Origin: Phycisphaerae bacterium
GTDB taxonomy: Bacteria; Planctomycetota; Phycisphaerae; UBA1845; Fen-1342
NCBI GenBank assembly: GCA_017999985.1
Contig: JAGNKU010000012.1
Span: forward strand, 1 to 64,000
Reading direction: 5' to 3'
DNA: 64,000 bases
Shown: positions 428 through 7,336 of the stretch, piece by piece
Position numbering within the stretch: the first letter of the stretch is position 1
Layout of the letters: the number at the start of each line of letters is the position of its first letter
Program-made: the position numbers and the translations under genes
Notes under the pieces: model-generated
The model's input: the letters and a program-made list of their open reading frames with translations, nothing else
Databases searched by the model: none
What the model was told of the DNA's origin: nothing

Positions 428-2260
428 CTACTCCGACTGCATACGGAACGACGTCTCGAATTCGACGCGGCCACCTTGGCTGCTCACCGCCACGAGGTCC
501 TTCCCTGGCGGGACGGCGAAGATCAGTCCGAGCACGGCGTCGTCCTGGTCCTGCAATAGCGTCCGCACCGACTTGTCCTTGAAATCGAGCATCTGGCGGA
601 AGCTGGGGTCGTCCGGGACGTAAACCAGCTCGAAGTACGTCTGGTCGCCCTTCTTTACGATCGCGTAATAGCCGACGAGGTCATAGCTCTCGCCGCTGCT
701 GTCGACGGCCTTGTACTGGTTCGTAACCGAGCCGACGAAGTTCATCACCTGGCCGGGCAGCGACTTGGCCTTGCGCGGCTTCGTCTCAAGCTGGAAGAGG
801 CGTTTGCCCTCCGGCAGCTTGAAGCGCGCCACGTTGCCCTCGGCCTCCTTCTCCGGAACCTCGAACACCGCCCGGTCGCCGTCCACGCGCGCGCTGGCCA
901 GGGTCGTGCCGGCGAGCTCCACGGACGAGATCGGCCGCAGCTTGTCGATGCTCATGACGAACGGGAGCCGATCGCGGTCGCCGGTCACGCCCCGGTTGAC
1001 GGTGTCGATGAAGCGTGCCGGGCCGGTGGCGCGGTCTCTGCCGGTGCCGCCCTGGGCCTCCGCGGCGAGCCGGTCGCCCGGCGCTGACTTGGCCTTCTGG
1101 CCGTCGCTCAGGGCCGCCCGCGCGTGGCGACGATATTCGAGGAAGCGCGGCTGGAAGCCTTCCTTGACCTCGAAATAGGCGTCGACCGTCGCGGTCTTGT
1201 CCCCGGACATCCCGAAGTTGTTGTCGAGGTCCACGATGCGAATCTTGGATTCGATCGCCGAGTCCACCCCGCCCAGCATCTGCGGAATGTACTGCTGTGG
1301 CTCGGCCGTGCCATCCGGGAGCTTGACGTCGCCGACGAGGCGGATCATCGACGGGCGGAAGCGGTGGTAGGCCGACTGCTTGTCGCGGTCGGCAGCGGCA
1401 CGCTCGAGGGTGAGCCGCACGCCGATCAGCCGGTTGCCGGGCTGGACCTTGTACGCGATCGGCTCGTACGGCGGTTTCTCATTGGACTTGTCGGGCTTGA
1501 GCCGGCGGTAGCGCGTGTCATCCGCAGTCAGCGGGGTGGTCTGCTCCCACCATGATTCAACTTTCAGGCCGTTCTTGAAGCCGTCCCCCTTGTCGTCGCG
1601 GATCGGCGCCGTAAGCGACTCCGGTTGCACCGTGTTGCCGCTCCAGAAAACCCAGGTGGGGTAGTCGGGGTAGACGCTCGCGAACGTGGTCGGGCCACGG
1701 AGACTGCCGTTGCTGAGCAGCTTGAACAACCCGGCGGCAAAGGCGTCCGAGCGCAGCCAGACGTGGTGGCGCACGAAGGCGACACGTTCGTCCTGCATCT
1801 TCTCGTCCGGCGGCAGTTCGGCATCGCGATAGGTGCGGTTCTCCGGATCGCGCTCATAACGTGAGTAGCCCAGCGCCCGCCCGCCCCACGGCAGCATGAG
1901 GAAGCCGATGATCAGCACGCCGATGGTGATCTGTCCGACGAAGAACCCGCACGCCGCGCCGCCGATCCAGTCCACGTACATCGGGACCCGGACGTTGCCG
2001 CGCAGGAACAGATCGCTCAGGGTTCGCAGGATGAAGACCGTGACGATGAAGAGCAGCACCAGGGCCAACGGCTCGGTGTACGAAGGGTGCAGGTTGAGCG
2101 TGCCGGTCAGCAGGTCGTTGAGCGGGTCGACGTAGCCGAACGCCACGGCCAGCGCAAACACGCAGCACGCCAGGTTCAGGATGCCGCTATAGAGCCCGAA
2201 GATCGAGTGCACGAACGTGATGCCGAGCACGAAGAGCAGGGCGAAGAGATTGAGAGCCAT
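428..2260 (-). CDS. CvpA-like membrane protein with large C-terminal domain
   Basis: 610 aa. The first ~130 residues hold four hydrophobic segments in the pattern of the CvpA (colicin V production) family, with a short polar hairpin after the second. The remaining ~480 residues are soluble, charged and rich in beta-strand-like patterns, and I do not recognise them. Ordinary CvpA proteins are about 160-200 aa, so this is a fusion or a strongly extended form. Third gene of a minus-strand operon: its ribosome-binding site (GGGAGG) overlaps the end of the upstream GspE-like gene, three bases away. The link to pilT suggests an envelope or motility-associated membrane role, which is inference. Confidence 0.6.
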   Translation of the reverse strand: MALNLFALLFVLGITFVHSIFGLYSGILNLACCVFALAVAFGYVDPLNDLLTGTLNLHPSYTEPLALVLLFIVTVFILRTLSDLFLRGNVRVPMYVDWIGGAACGFFVGQITIGVLIIGFLMLPWGGRALGYSRYERDPENRTYRDAELPPDEKMQDERVAFVRHHVWLRSDAFAAGLFKLLSNGSLRGPTTFASVYPDYPTWVFWSGNTVQPESLTAPIRDDKGDGFKNGLKVESWWEQTTPLTADDTRYRRLKPDKSNEKPPYEPIAYKVQPGNRLIGVRLTLERAAADRDKQSAYHRFRPSMIRLVGDVKLPDGTAEPQQYIPQMLGGVDSAIESKIRIVDLDNNFGMSGDKTATVDAYFEVKEGFQPRFLEYRRHARAALSDGQKAKSAPGDRLAAEAQGGTGRDRATGPARFIDTVNRGVTGDRDRLPFVMSIDKLRPISSVELAGTTLASARVDGDRAVFEVPEKEAEGNVARFKLPEGKRLFQLETKPRKAKSLPGQVMNFVGSVTNQYKAVDSSGESYDLVGYYAIVKKGDQTYFELVYVPDDPSFRQMLDFKDKSVRTLLQDQDDAVLGLIFAVPPGKDLVAVSSQGGRVEFETSFRMQSE

Positions 2261-2263
2261 GCT

Positions 2264-4015
2264 TCACCTCCCGGCCTGGGGCTGTGCGCCGCCGGCGGCG
2301 GCGGGCGGCTTCGGTTGCGGTCGCGGCTGGGGTCGCGGTTGCGGGCCGGCGGGCGGCGCCTTGGCCGGCGTGCCGCCGTTGCCGCGGACCGCGCGGGCGA
2401 CCTCCTGGATACTCGTCACGCCGTCCAGGACTTTCTGGAGCGCCTGCGCCTGCAAACCGAGACCAAGGCGCTTCTGCACGTAGGTCTGGATCTCGGTCAT
2501 GGACTTGCTGCGGCGGATGACCTCGCGGAGGGGGTCGTCGACGCCGAGCCAGTCGAACACGCCGGTCCGGCCGAAGTACCCGCTGCCCTGACAGGCGGGG
2601 CAGATGATCGGCTCGCCCTTTTTGTCGAAGACGGGTTCCGGGGGACGGTAGAGCACCTTGTCCTCCGGCAGGTTGAGCTTGCGCATCATGTCGGGGTTGG
2701 GCTTGTAGGCCTGTTTGCAGGTGGGGCAGAGCACGCGGACCAGGCGCTGGTTGGTCACGGCCAGCAGGCTCTTGGCCACGAGCGACTTGTCGCCGACCAT
2801 CGCAATCCACTTGCGCAGGGCGTCGACGATGTCCGTGGCGCCGATGGCGACATAGACCTTCTGTTTCTCGGCGGCGGCCTTGGAGGCGATCGCCGCCCCC
2901 TCGCGCTCGCGCAGGTCCGGCAGCACGATGATGTCGGGATCGGAGCGGACGAGCTTCAGCAGGCGCTCGCTGAAGGACGGGCCCTCTCCCGGCGTGAAGA
3001 GGTTCTGGGTGACGTTGTCGAGGTCCAGCTCTTTCTCGTACTCGACCGTCTGCACGTTCTGCAGGAAGCGATCATGATTGCGGGTGAAGCTGTAAATCGT
3101 CGTGGTGAGGCCGCAGCCCGGGGGGGCGGAGAGCAGGATCAGCCCCTTGGTCTCCTCCTTGGTGGCCTGGGCCAGTTCCAGTTGACGCGGGGTGAAACCC
3201 AGATCGGGGACCTTGAACTCCGCCTCCTTGCCGATGATCCGGACGAAGAGCTTCTCGCCCGCGGTCGAGCCATCGGTCCGCACGACGACCTTGTGCTTGT
3301 CGCCGCCGATCGCGGCCATGATCATGCCTTTTTGCGGCTTGCGGCGTTCCTCGACGTTGAGGCCGGCGAGTTGCTTGACGTACTGGACGATGGCGTCCGC
3401 TTCCGCGCGGGCGAGTGTCTGGCCCTCGACGGGCAGGCCGTCGACCTGGAAGACGATCTTGGAGGCTTGCGGGCCGGCGGGCACGATCTCGCTGATGGCC
3501 GCGCGTCGCCAGAACGTGTCGAACATGAGATCCTGGGTCAGGCGGTACTGTTCGCGCTCGGGGTCCTCGGCCGGGATCTCGACGACCTTGCGGTTGTGGG
3601 CCGTGAGGCGGACCTTCTCCTTGACCTCGACCTGCTTCTTCTTTCGGCTGAAGCCCTGCGCGCGAAGACGCTTGAGGTGTCCCACGGTGAACACTCGGTC
3701 GTCTTCCTTCACGAGCCCGTTGCGGTGGACGACGTACAGCGTGCCCACGACCAGGTTGAGGACGACGAACACGGTGAACCCGACGGCGAACATGGGGACG
3801 AAGAGCGCCACCAGAAAGGCCACCAGTCCGGTGCCGAGTACGATCAGGTTCCAAAGGACGCGAAACGTGTTGACCGCGATCGTGTCCTTGTCGACCCAGG
3901 CGGCGAAGATGGCCCACAACCCGAACACCACCACGATCCCGCCCAGCTTGAGCGGGTCGATGTAGGCTCCGCTCGCAGGCAACTCGGCGAGCAGCATCTG
4001 GCCGGCGATCAGCAT
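2264..4015 (-). CDS. membrane-anchored GspE/PilB-like protein with degenerate ATPase site
   Basis: 583 aa. Residues ~24-96 form three transmembrane helices, unusual for this cytosolic family. Residues ~160-560 follow the secretion-ATPase fold. The Walker A site reads APPGCGLTTT, so Leu303 stands where the ATP-binding Lys should be. The Walker B/Glu box reads DIIVLPDLRE, with Pro366-Asp367 replacing Gly-Glu. The zinc tetracysteine (C430, C433, C472, C475) is kept. The C-terminal ~30 residues are Pro/Gln/Arg-rich. It follows pilT by 41 bp. Likely a catalytically weak or inactive partner or scaffold for a type IV pilus-type machine; that role is inference. Confidence 0.75.
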   Translation of the reverse strand: MLIAGQMLLAELPASGAYIDPLKLGGIVVVFGLWAIFAAWVDKDTIAVNTFRVLWNLIVLGTGLVAFLVALFVPMFAVGFTVFVVLNLVVGTLYVVHRNGLVKEDDRVFTVGHLKRLRAQGFSRKKKQVEVKEKVRLTAHNRKVVEIPAEDPEREQYRLTQDLMFDTFWRRAAISEIVPAGPQASKIVFQVDGLPVEGQTLARAEADAIVQYVKQLAGLNVEERRKPQKGMIMAAIGGDKHKVVVRTDGSTAGEKLFVRIIGKEAEFKVPDLGFTPRQLELAQATKEETKGLILLSAPPGCGLTTTIYSFTRNHDRFLQNVQTVEYEKELDLDNVTQNLFTPGEGPSFSERLLKLVRSDPDIIVLPDLREREGAAIASKAAAEKQKVYVAIGATDIVDALRKWIAMVGDKSLVAKSLLAVTNQRLVRVLCPTCKQAYKPNPDMMRKLNLPEDKVLYRPPEPVFDKKGEPIICPACQGSGYFGRTGVFDWLGVDDPLREVIRRSKSMTEIQTYVQKRLGLGLQAQALQKVLDGVTSIQEVARAVRGNGGTPAKAPPAGPQPRPQPRPQPKPPAAAGGAQPQAGR

Positions 4016-4056: not shown

Positions 4057-5271
4057 TTAACCCAGGATGGCCGCCCGCCGGCCCTGGATGCCCTTCAGCG
4101 CCATCCGCAGCTCGTCAGGGTTCGGGGCGGCCTCGTACGCGGTGGCGTGGTCGATGTATCCGCTATCGACCAGCCGCCGCAAGTGCTCCGTGAAATCGAC
4201 CATGCCGTCGTCGTAGGACGCCCGGATGACGTCCACGATCTCGTTGTCGCGCTCCTCGCGGATCAGCTTCCGGATGGACGCGTTGGTGTACATGATCTCC
4301 ACTGCCGGCACGAGCGGCACGCCCTCCTTGACGCTGGGGATCAGTTTCTGGCAGATGATCGATTTCAGGTTGAACTCCAGCGCCTGGCGGACCGAGCGGC
4401 GCTCGTCGGGCGGGAACAGGTCGAGCAGACGCGAGATGGTCTGCGACGAGCTCGAGGCGTGGATCGTGCCGAACACGAGGTGCCCGGTCTCGGCCGCGTG
4501 CACGGCGGCTTTGAACGTCTCGACGTCGCGCATCTCGCCGATCAGCACGATGTCCGGGTCTTCGCGCATGAGGTATTTCAGCGCATCGTGGAAGTCGCCG
4601 ACGTCGATGCCGATCTCGCGCTGGTTGATGACGGCGCGCTTGTCGGTGAACAGGTACTCGATCGGGTCCTCGATCGTGACAATGTGCACCGGGTCGCGCT
4701 TGTTGATGTGGTCGATCATCGCCGCGATGGTGGTGCTCTTGCCCGAGCCGGTGATGCCCGCGAGCAGCGCCATGCCCTGGTGGAAGTGCGTCACCTGCTC
4801 CACGGATTCGGGCAGGTACAGCTCCGCGAAATTACGGATGTCCCGCGACACGCGCCGCGCCGCCACGGACATCTGCCCGCGCTGCTGGAAGGCATTGACG
4901 CGGAACCGGTCCGCGTCACCCGGCGGGCCGACATCGTACGCGAAGTCAACCGCCCCGCGCTCCTCGTACAGAACCTTCTGCTTCTCGGTCAGGACTTCGA
5001 AGATCCCCTCCCGAATTTGCTGGCCCGTGAGCGGCCCCCCTTGCAGCGGGCGCAAGTCGCCCTTCATGCGGATCATCGCGGGCAGCCCGGCCTTCAGATG
5101 CAGGTCTGAAACCTTCAGCTTGATGACCGCCTTGAAGAACTTGTTCAGCGACGGGCCCTTTTTCTTGCCCTCCTCGTCCGGAGCCTCGAGCACGGGCTCG
5201 GTGACGGCAGGCCCGGTGGGTACGACTGGAGTGGTTTCATCAGGCGAGGCGTCGATCGGGATTTCAGCCAT
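4057..5271 (-). CDS. pilT: PilT-like twitching motility / pilus retraction ATPase
   Basis: 404 aa, a little longer than usual because of a ~40-residue acidic, Pro-rich N-terminus. It carries Walker A GITGSGKST (K178), an Asp/His-box region VTIEDPIEY, Walker B DPDIVLIGEMRD (E246) and the His box GTIHASSS. PilT hexamers hydrolyse ATP at the base of the type IV pilus to retract it. First gene of the operon with the GspE-like and CvpA-like genes. The start has GGAGG about 10 bases upstream. It keeps every catalytic residue that its neighbour has lost. Confidence 0.93.
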   Translation of the reverse strand: MAEIPIDASPDETTPVVPTGPAVTEPVLEAPDEEGKKKGPSLNKFFKAVIKLKVSDLHLKAGLPAMIRMKGDLRPLQGGPLTGQQIREGIFEVLTEKQKVLYEERGAVDFAYDVGPPGDADRFRVNAFQQRGQMSVAARRVSRDIRNFAELYLPESVEQVTHFHQGMALLAGITGSGKSTTIAAMIDHINKRDPVHIVTIEDPIEYLFTDKRAVINQREIGIDVGDFHDALKYLMREDPDIVLIGEMRDVETFKAAVHAAETGHLVFGTIHASSSSQTISRLLDLFPPDERRSVRQALEFNLKSIICQKLIPSVKEGVPLVPAVEIMYTNASIRKLIREERDNEIVDVIRASYDDGMVDFTEHLRRLVDSGYIDHATAYEAAPNPDELRMALKGIQGRRAAILG

Positions 5272-5547: not shown

Positions 5548-6405
5548 ATGAACGCAGCAACTCGGACGCAGGGCGGCAGGTGGGCGGTGACCGTCGGCTG
5601 GTTCCTGGGGGTGGTCGTGGCGGGCCTCGCAAGTGCGGCGCCGGCCCGGGCCCAGGCGGAGGAGAAGCTCCCGAAGGCCGAGGAGGTGCTCGACAAGGCG
5701 GTGGACGCGCTGGGCGGGAAGGCGGCCATGGACAAGGTCCACAATCGCGTCTCGAAGGGCGCGTTCGAGGTGCCGCTCCAGGGCATGAAGGGCGCCGTCA
5801 CCATGTACGAGGCCGCCCCCAACAAGACGTACACGATCATCGAGCTACCGAACATCGGCAAGATGGAGAGCGGCACGGACGGCGAGACGTTCTGGGAGAT
5901 CAGCCCACAGGGCGCCCGGATCCTCGAGGGCGAAGAGAAGGCGATGAAGGCGCGCGAGAGCGAGTTCCACTTCCTGCTCAACTGGAAGAAGCTCTACAAG
6001 AGCGCCGAGTGCACCGGCGTTGCAGACGTGGCGGACCACCCCGCGTTCAAGATCGTCCTGACGCCGACGACCGGCGATCCGCAGACCTACTACTTTGACC
6101 GCAAGACGTACCTGCCGGTGCGGATGGACGTGGTCGTCAAGAGCCAGATGGGGGCGGTGCCGGTCGAAGTGCTGATCACCGACTACAAGGCGGTCAACGG
6201 CGTCCAGATTCCGCACAAGATCACGCAGCGTATGATGGGCATGGAGCAGTTTGTGAAGATCGACAGCGTGGAATGCAACGTCGATCTGCCCGCCGACCGC
6301 TTCGCGCTCCCCCCGGCCGTGAAAGAGCTCATGCAGAAGCCGAAGACCGAGAGCGCGCCCGCCGGCGCAGAAAAGCCCAAGACGGAGCAGCCCAAGACCG
6401 AATAG
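5548..6405 (+). CDS. secreted LolA-like / outer-membrane lipoprotein-sorting-type protein (copy 1)
   Basis: 285 aa with a Sec signal peptide (hydrophobic stretch at ~14-32 ending APARAQ). The mature part starts LPKAEEVLDKAVDALGG and continues with the alternating strand pattern of LolA/LolB-type half-barrels, including a YYFDRKTYLPVRMD element near 2/3 of its length that is common in these families. Probably periplasmic lipid or lipoprotein handling; the substrate cannot be read from sequence. The next gene is a clear paralogue in the same order. The C-terminus is a Lys/Pro/Thr-rich tail. Confidence 0.6.
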   Translation: MNAATRTQGGRWAVTVGWFLGVVVAGLASAAPARAQAEEKLPKAEEVLDKAVDALGGKAAMDKVHNRVSKGAFEVPLQGMKGAVTMYEAAPNKTYTIIELPNIGKMESGTDGETFWEISPQGARILEGEEKAMKARESEFHFLLNWKKLYKSAECTGVADVADHPAFKIVLTPTTGDPQTYYFDRKTYLPVRMDVVVKSQMGAVPVEVLITDYKAVNGVQIPHKITQRMMGMEQFVKIDSVECNVDLPADRFALPPAVKELMQKPKTESAPAGAEKPKTEQPKTE

Positions 6406-6481
6406 CCGCTGATGTGGCGGCCGGTTGCGGTGTCCTCGCGCGCGGGCAGCGCCCCGTGCTCTCGCGGACAGGAGGTTTGCC

Positions 6482-7336
6482 ATGATCGTCGCGCCCCGGC
6501 CGTGCACCTGCGCTCGTTTCGCCACCATTCTGGCTCTGGTCGTTGCCCTGCCCACGCTCGCGAGCCGCGCGCCGGCGCAGGACGACAAGCTTCCCGCCGC
6601 CGAGAAAATCCTCGACAAATCGCTGCAGGGTCTGGGTGGCACCACGGCATTCGAGAAGATCCACTCTCGGGTGTCCAAGGGCCAGATCGAGTTCGCGGTC
6701 GGTTCCCAGAGCCGCAAGGGCGCGGTTACCCTGTACGAAGCCGAGCCCAACAAGCGCTACCAGCGCGCTAGTCTTGTGCAGCTCGGCGTGCTGGAGGGCG
6801 GCTGCGATGGCGACGTGGTGTGGGAGATCGCCGGCGGCAAGGTCAGCCTCTTCGAGGGCGACGAACTCGCCAATCGTCTGCGCCAAGGCCATTTCAACGC
6901 GCTGCTGCACTGGCGCGACTTGTACGAGAAGGCAGACTGCGTCGGCAAGGAGGACGTGAACGCCCGTTCCTGCTACAAGGTCGTGCTGACGCCGCTGACC
7001 GGGTCGCCGGACACGCTGTACTTCGATCGCAAGAACGGCTACCCGATCCGCATGGACATCACGCGTTCCGCGGAGAGGGGCCCGCTGGTGATCCAGATCC
7101 TGTCGGAGAACTTCAAGCAGGTTGACGATATCTGGGTGCCGTTCAAGGTGACGCGCGTCGTCACCGCGCAGGGTGAGACGCTGCAGACGGTCACGTACAC
7201 GTGGGAGAGCATCGAGCACAACCCGGAGATCCCCGCCGATTGCTTCGACCTGCCCGATGCGGTCAAGCAAGCCCGTGAGAAAGCGGCGTCCAAGGACAAG
7301 AACAAGGACGACGATAAGGACGAGCCGGCGGACTAG
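6482..7336 (+). CDS. secreted LolA-like protein (copy 2)
   Basis: 284 aa, tandem paralogue of the preceding gene. Shared blocks include LP.AEK.LDK...LGG, RVSKG, KGAVT.YEA.PNK, KVVLTPLTGSPDTLYFDRK and PIRMDI. The start at 6482 is preferred to an upstream in-frame one because AGGAGG lies at 6470-6475 and a signal peptide follows directly. The C-terminus is a charged Lys/Asp tail. Both copies lie 76 bp apart and are probably co-transcribed. Function is inferred from fold pattern only. Confidence 0.6.
   Translation: MIVAPRPCTCARFATILALVVALPTLASRAPAQDDKLPAAEKILDKSLQGLGGTTAFEKIHSRVSKGQIEFAVGSQSRKGAVTLYEAEPNKRYQRASLVQLGVLEGGCDGDVVWEIAGGKVSLFEGDELANRLRQGHFNALLHWRDLYEKADCVGKEDVNARSCYKVVLTPLTGSPDTLYFDRKNGYPIRMDITRSAERGPLVIQILSENFKQVDDIWVPFKVTRVVTAQGETLQTVTYTWESIEHNPEIPADCFDLPDAVKQAREKAASKDKNKDDDKDEPAD

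Follow-up and report, generated by a model that had tools for sequence, protein, structure and literature searches.

The PilB/GspE family, which includes the assembly ATPases of type IV pili and type II secretion systems, is itself already known. To our knowledge, natural pseudo-ATPases have not been recognised as part of type IV filament machines. It has been shown that the zinc tetracysteine domain is essential for the function of EpsE and is absent from PilT and PilU (PMC5061722). In Vibrio cholerae, PilU works only with PilT, and two-hybrid assays have detected interactions among PilB, PilT and PilU (PMC6762196). In the part of the literature that we searched, we found no description of a pilus or secretion pseudo-ATPase, nor of CvpA paired with PilT. 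The same holds for the arrangement reported here, a natural class-wide branch of pseudo-ATPases with active orthologues that is paired with a CvpA-like protein.

The window, a stretch of 64,000 nucleotides from a Phycisphaerae bacterium (contig JAGNKU010000012.1), harbours the following three neighbouring genes:

4057 to 5271, minus strand: intact PilT, 404 aa, the upstream neighbour (TIGR01420)
2264 to 4015, minus strand: putative membrane-tethered pseudo-ATPase with PilB/GspE fold, 583 aa (Pfam T2SSE, AF2, VIA)
428 to 2260, minus strand: CvpA-like membrane protein with a large beta-rich domain, 610 aa, the downstream neighbour (4 TM helices; Pfam Colicin_V)

The earlier note had described the central ORF as a membrane-tethered GspE-like protein next to an intact PilT, and had its coordinates and strand right. 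The product matched Pfam T2SSE (PF00437) with 1.9e-50 and 172 bits (cut-off 24.9). Its cytoplasmic part is predicted to have the PilB/GspE fold, as the model aligned with Thermus PilF (5oiu_B) at Z 41.0 and 2.7 A over 380 residues (VIA). The scores for the narrower profiles remained below the cut-offs, with 204.6 against 630.25 bits for the GspE equivalog TIGR02533, 178.8 against 675.65 bits for the PilB equivalog TIGR02538 and 34.1 against 319.1 bits for the PilT/PilU profile TIGR01420. The neighbouring PilT was indeed intact: it reached 397.7 bits with TIGR01420 (4.6e-119; cut-off 319.1), and its catalytic K178, E246 and H271 are invariant in 20 orthologues.

As had also been claimed, three N-terminal TM helices replace the soluble domain with which canonical PilBs begin. 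These form three long helices in the AlphaFold (AF2) model, for which the input included 43 orthologues and which had a pLDDT of 89.6:

3872 to 3955, minus strand: TM helix 1 (residues 21-48; W34, W40, D44), from AF2 helix and hydropathy
3800 to 3862, minus strand: TM helix 2 (residues 52-72; W55), from AF2 helix and hydropathy
3713 to 3790, minus strand: TM helix 3 (residues 76-101; Y94, R98, N99), from AF2 helix and hydropathy

The motifs of the cytoplasmic part read as follows:

3098 to 3127, minus strand: degenerate Walker A APPGCGLTTT (residues 297-306), with Lys in 0/69 class orthologues
3026 to 3049, minus strand: degenerate Asp box TVEYEKEL (residues 323-330), with Glu325 kept in 50/50 and the Asp lost
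2906 to 2947, minus strand: altered Walker B RSDPDIIVLPDLRE (residues 357-370), from alignment with canonical PilBs and orthologues
2831 to 2869, minus strand: degenerate His box EKQKVYVAIGATD (residues 383-395), both His lost
2591 to 2728, minus strand: intact zinc tetracysteine C430/C433...C472/C475, conserved in 48-50 of 50 orthologues

In the P-loop, the window reads SAPPGCGLTTT, compared to SGPTGSGKTTT in canonical motors. Leu303 (codon CTC, 3107-3109) occupies the site of the Walker A lysine, and the loop does not match GX4GK[ST]. The change in the Walker B/Glu box that had been pointed out before was found as well (IIVLPDLRE, compared to VGEIRD in canonical PilB), and all four zinc ligands (Cys 430, 433, 472 and 475) are present in the CXXC...CXXC arrangement of GspE/PilB. 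Further losses had gone unmentioned. The Asp box deviates from the canonical TIEDPVEY, the Asp of its EDP being replaced by Tyr326, followed by E327. Gln385 and Gly392 stand at the His-box positions, and Val244 at that of the first Arg finger. At the place where the canonical motor reads GHLVFSTLHTND, the window carries KQKVYVAIGATD. Every motif is present in seven canonical PilBs of the class that were read. The window's own genome, which has 12 T2SSE proteins, contributed four of them, and ordinary GKT PilBs coexist with the pseudo-ATPase in the same genomes. The retained zinc domain agrees with a retained assembly role, as this is the domain that is essential in EpsE and absent from PilT/PilU (PMC5061722).

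A protein search of the genomes sampled from the class supplied relatives, regions were retrieved from different families, and members of weak-scoring families were obtained with a profile search. The resulting 69 orthologues, window included, belong to 27 families of one class (Phycisphaerae by two named relatives). None of them has the Walker A lysine; the site is Leu in 27, Val in 20, Arg in 13, Ile in 4 and another residue in 5. A single step cannot turn a Lys codon into a Leu or Val codon, so the preference for an aliphatic residue at this site looks selected. According to the earlier note, close relatives with a normal GKT would have pointed to lineage-specific decay. No such relative was present in the class, and orthologues with GKS or GKT were found only outside it.

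Motif conservation was scored in detail for 50 orthologues. Gly302 and Glu325 are kept in all 50, Thr/Ser304 in 49 and the zinc cysteines in 48-50, while other residues are mostly lost: 23 orthologues retain the second Arg finger and 7 the first, the Walker B Glu remains in 19, and 4 still have the second His. The E-to-D change in the Walker B of the window is mild and variable across the family (E 19, D 17, other 14; n=50). The invariant lesion is the loss of the lysine, not the change in Walker B. In the family f8 orthologues (L124:4998-6725 and L125:5016-6752), three of the four zinc cysteines are also gone and the Walker A lysine site is Arg.

Sequencing error was ruled out, since two independent genomes have the same change in proteins that are 70-72% identical. 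The dN/dS values of close pseudo-ATPase pairs (0.03-0.15) are similar to those of active relatives (0.02-0.14), and the pseudo-ATPase is a maintained protein under purifying selection. Together with the class-wide pattern, these values rule out lineage-specific decay, and the sequence supports the proposed pseudo-ATPase. Its fast divergence, with a mean column identity of 37% compared to 61% for the neighbouring PilT, would suit a non-functional relic in decay. However, the protein is full-length across the class, gene order is conserved and the TM and zinc residues are invariant, which, in addition to purifying selection, leaves a relic with next to no probability.

We also looked for a relocated lysine. 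A Lys or Arg lies within the loop in 29 of the 50 orthologues, but its position is not fixed and the loop of the window has none, and this candidate was rejected. A still active ATPase, in which such a relocated residue substitutes for the lysine, could appeal to the acidic Walker B residue (E or D in 36/50) and to the Arg at the lysine site in 13/69. It is nevertheless very improbable: the lysine, the His boxes, the Asp-box Asp and the Arg fingers are gone together, and nowhere in the loop has a basic residue become invariant. Arg312 (3080-3082) directly follows the P-loop helix; a basic residue is found at this position in 46/50 pseudo-ATPases, compared to 12% among canonical PilBs and active relatives.

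The kept Gly, Thr and Glu may leave room for nucleotide binding. By way of these residues, the pocket could bind ATP or another ligand and switch the conformation of a platform without hydrolysis. The near-complete conservation of Gly302, Thr/Ser304 and Glu325 would be expected of such a sensor, and the basic residues in the loop and at position 312 speak for it as well. On the other hand, the basic residue of the loop has no fixed place and is missing from the window, and Walker A mutation strongly lowers the nucleotide affinity of PilB (PMC5544727). We regard a nucleotide sensor as quite unlikely.

A further profile search covered 294 genomes of the phylum. Tethered proteins matched the profile over the full length, whereas the matches of canonical PilBs began only at about profile position 100-160. 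Outside the class, the tethered protein was found in families f50, f57, f71, f91 and f100, and there too the CvpA-like gene adjoins it. All ten proteins of f50, f57 and f71 read catalytically intact (GKST or GKTT; EDP or ENP; GEIRD; both His), whereas the three read from f91 and f100 have degenerate motifs, the lysine site being Leu in two of them and Phe in the third. The W and D of TM helix 1 are nearly invariant in the orthologues and also occur in the active tethered relatives. The signature as a whole (W34, W40, D44, W55, Y94, R98 and N99) is common to intact and dead tethered forms, and canonical PilBs lack it. Because catalytically intact relatives bear the same signature, the tether is, on this comparison, older than the loss of the lysine.

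Two changes of state are needed in trees that were built without the motif columns. The careful tree of a smaller set places f91/f100 beside f50 (support 94/91), and one origin was seen in 1% of the bootstrap trees. In the AU test on the larger set, a single origin of the lysine loss was not rejected (p 0.19). An active tethered motor has probably become a pseudo-ATPase twice.

Gene neighbourhoods were counted at 43 loci of the class. The CvpA-like gene, which is absent from the earlier note, adjoins the pseudo-ATPase gene at 41 of these and PilT at 38, so that the CvpA-like gene is the closer partner. The match of its product to Pfam Colicin_V is below the cut-off in the window (1.9e-4) and over it in orthologues (1.1e-11 and 6.4e-7). 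Besides the four TM helices, the protein of the window has a beta-rich part of about 480 residues, and in other lineages it is far shorter (about 185-420 aa). A comparison of the soluble domain with solved folds (Foldseek, VIA) gave no match above Z 5. At most of the loci inspected, the trio is surrounded by genes other than pilus genes. At L044, L052 and L079 the cluster also includes a canonical PilB, and the one at L052:3157-4908 seemingly has an FHA-type N-terminal domain (by eye). In the window, two adjacent plus-strand ORFs (5548-6405 and 6425-7336) have signal-like N-termini and resemble tandem paralogues with a common K.PxAE..LDK...GG..A..K...RVSKG pattern.

Where PilT is not adjacent, a PilT of the trio type is clearly present elsewhere in seven of the nine genomes checked. 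In f50, where the CvpA-like gene is still adjacent, five of six genomes have a clear PilT at another place (480-506 bits, compared to about 360 for paralogues). It is likewise clear elsewhere in G171 and G260, and ambiguous in G031 and G236. The profile search of weak-scoring families gave no full-length match to the pseudo-ATPase in five genomes (G166, G122, G271, G080 and G157). In G166, G122 and G271, the pseudo-ATPase, the CvpA-like gene and PilT are absent together, which could reflect one missing contig, given that the three lie side by side and the assemblies are drafts. PilT as an obligatory partner everywhere was not upheld, because f11 (G016 and G048) keeps the pseudo-ATPase and the CvpA-like gene without a recognisable trio-type PilT, its best PilT being paralogue-like. 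The proposal that the protein anchors or regulates PilT is plausible given the frequent adjacency, but the CvpA-like gene is the closer neighbour and f11 does not fit, and we keep it as an inference.

These data suggest, at the level of sequence, that a motor was turned into a structural or control part. With moderate confidence, we take the protein to be a PilB/GspE family member that is tethered to the membrane and catalytically dead, and that would serve as a fixed docking or control platform for a working motor without ATP hydrolysis. At the inner membrane it would form a full or partial ring like that of PilB, which its own three TM helices and the CvpA-like protein would hold in place. 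The joint action of PilU with PilT and the interactions among the motors (PMC6762196) provide a precedent. The ring, which would itself hydrolyse no ATP, would offer a fixed surface on which a working motor could dock or be controlled, most likely the neighbouring PilT and possibly a canonical PilB. As most of the trans-acting Arg fingers have also disappeared, a hetero-hexamer in which catalytic sites are shared seems less likely than a stacked or side-by-side platform. A broader proposal, which we put forward tentatively, is that the whole class may have a pseudo-motor fixed in the membrane, which would descend from an active tethered PilB-like ATPase that still exists today. The lysine would have been replaced by a hydrophobic residue at least twice independently, and the pseudo-motor would form with its CvpA-like partner an unrecognised membrane platform for PilT-family motors.

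The main rival is a pseudo-motor that is PilB-like and frozen in a nucleotide-free state, and that signals to other pathways instead of holding PilT. M. xanthus PilB K327A provides a precedent, as it neither hydrolyses ATP nor sustains motility and yet signals exopolysaccharide production (PMC5544727), and the residue at the lysine site is non-basic in most of the orthologues. This precedent, however, was engineered in a soluble motor, and no conserved gene for a signalling partner was seen at the loci examined. We consider signalling unlikely. Dead and active living relatives with a common tether and common gene neighbours provide a natural experiment on the roles of PilB/GspE-type motors that do not burn ATP. 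Moreover, the poorly understood CvpA family becomes linked to PilT-type motors.

Compared to known systems, the window protein has the same fold as PilB, PilF and GspE (Z 36-41 across about 365-380 residues) and shares with them the zinc tetracysteine, the P-loop Gly and the Asp-box Glu. In contrast to these ATPases, it has lost the Walker A lysine, the Asp-box Asp, both His and most Arg fingers, and has three TM helices instead of a soluble N-terminal domain. Like PilU, the accessory retraction ATPase that is encoded beside pilT, it is a relative of the motor family and may act with PilT; PilU, however, is an active ATPase without the zinc domain, whereas the window protein is membrane-bound, PilB-like and without the catalytic residues. 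The Walker A mutant PilB of Myxococcus xanthus likewise lacks the P-loop lysine and is still functional as a signal (PMC5544727), but is a laboratory change in a normal motor, whereas the window protein represents a natural lineage. Among the close systems are also the active tethered relatives of the same phylum (f50, f57 and f71), which share the TM signature (W40, D44, Y94, R98), the full-length alignment, the CvpA-like neighbour and, in some, the PilT neighbour; in contrast to the window protein, these have all motifs intact (GPTGAGKST, EDPVEY, GEIRD and TGH...H).
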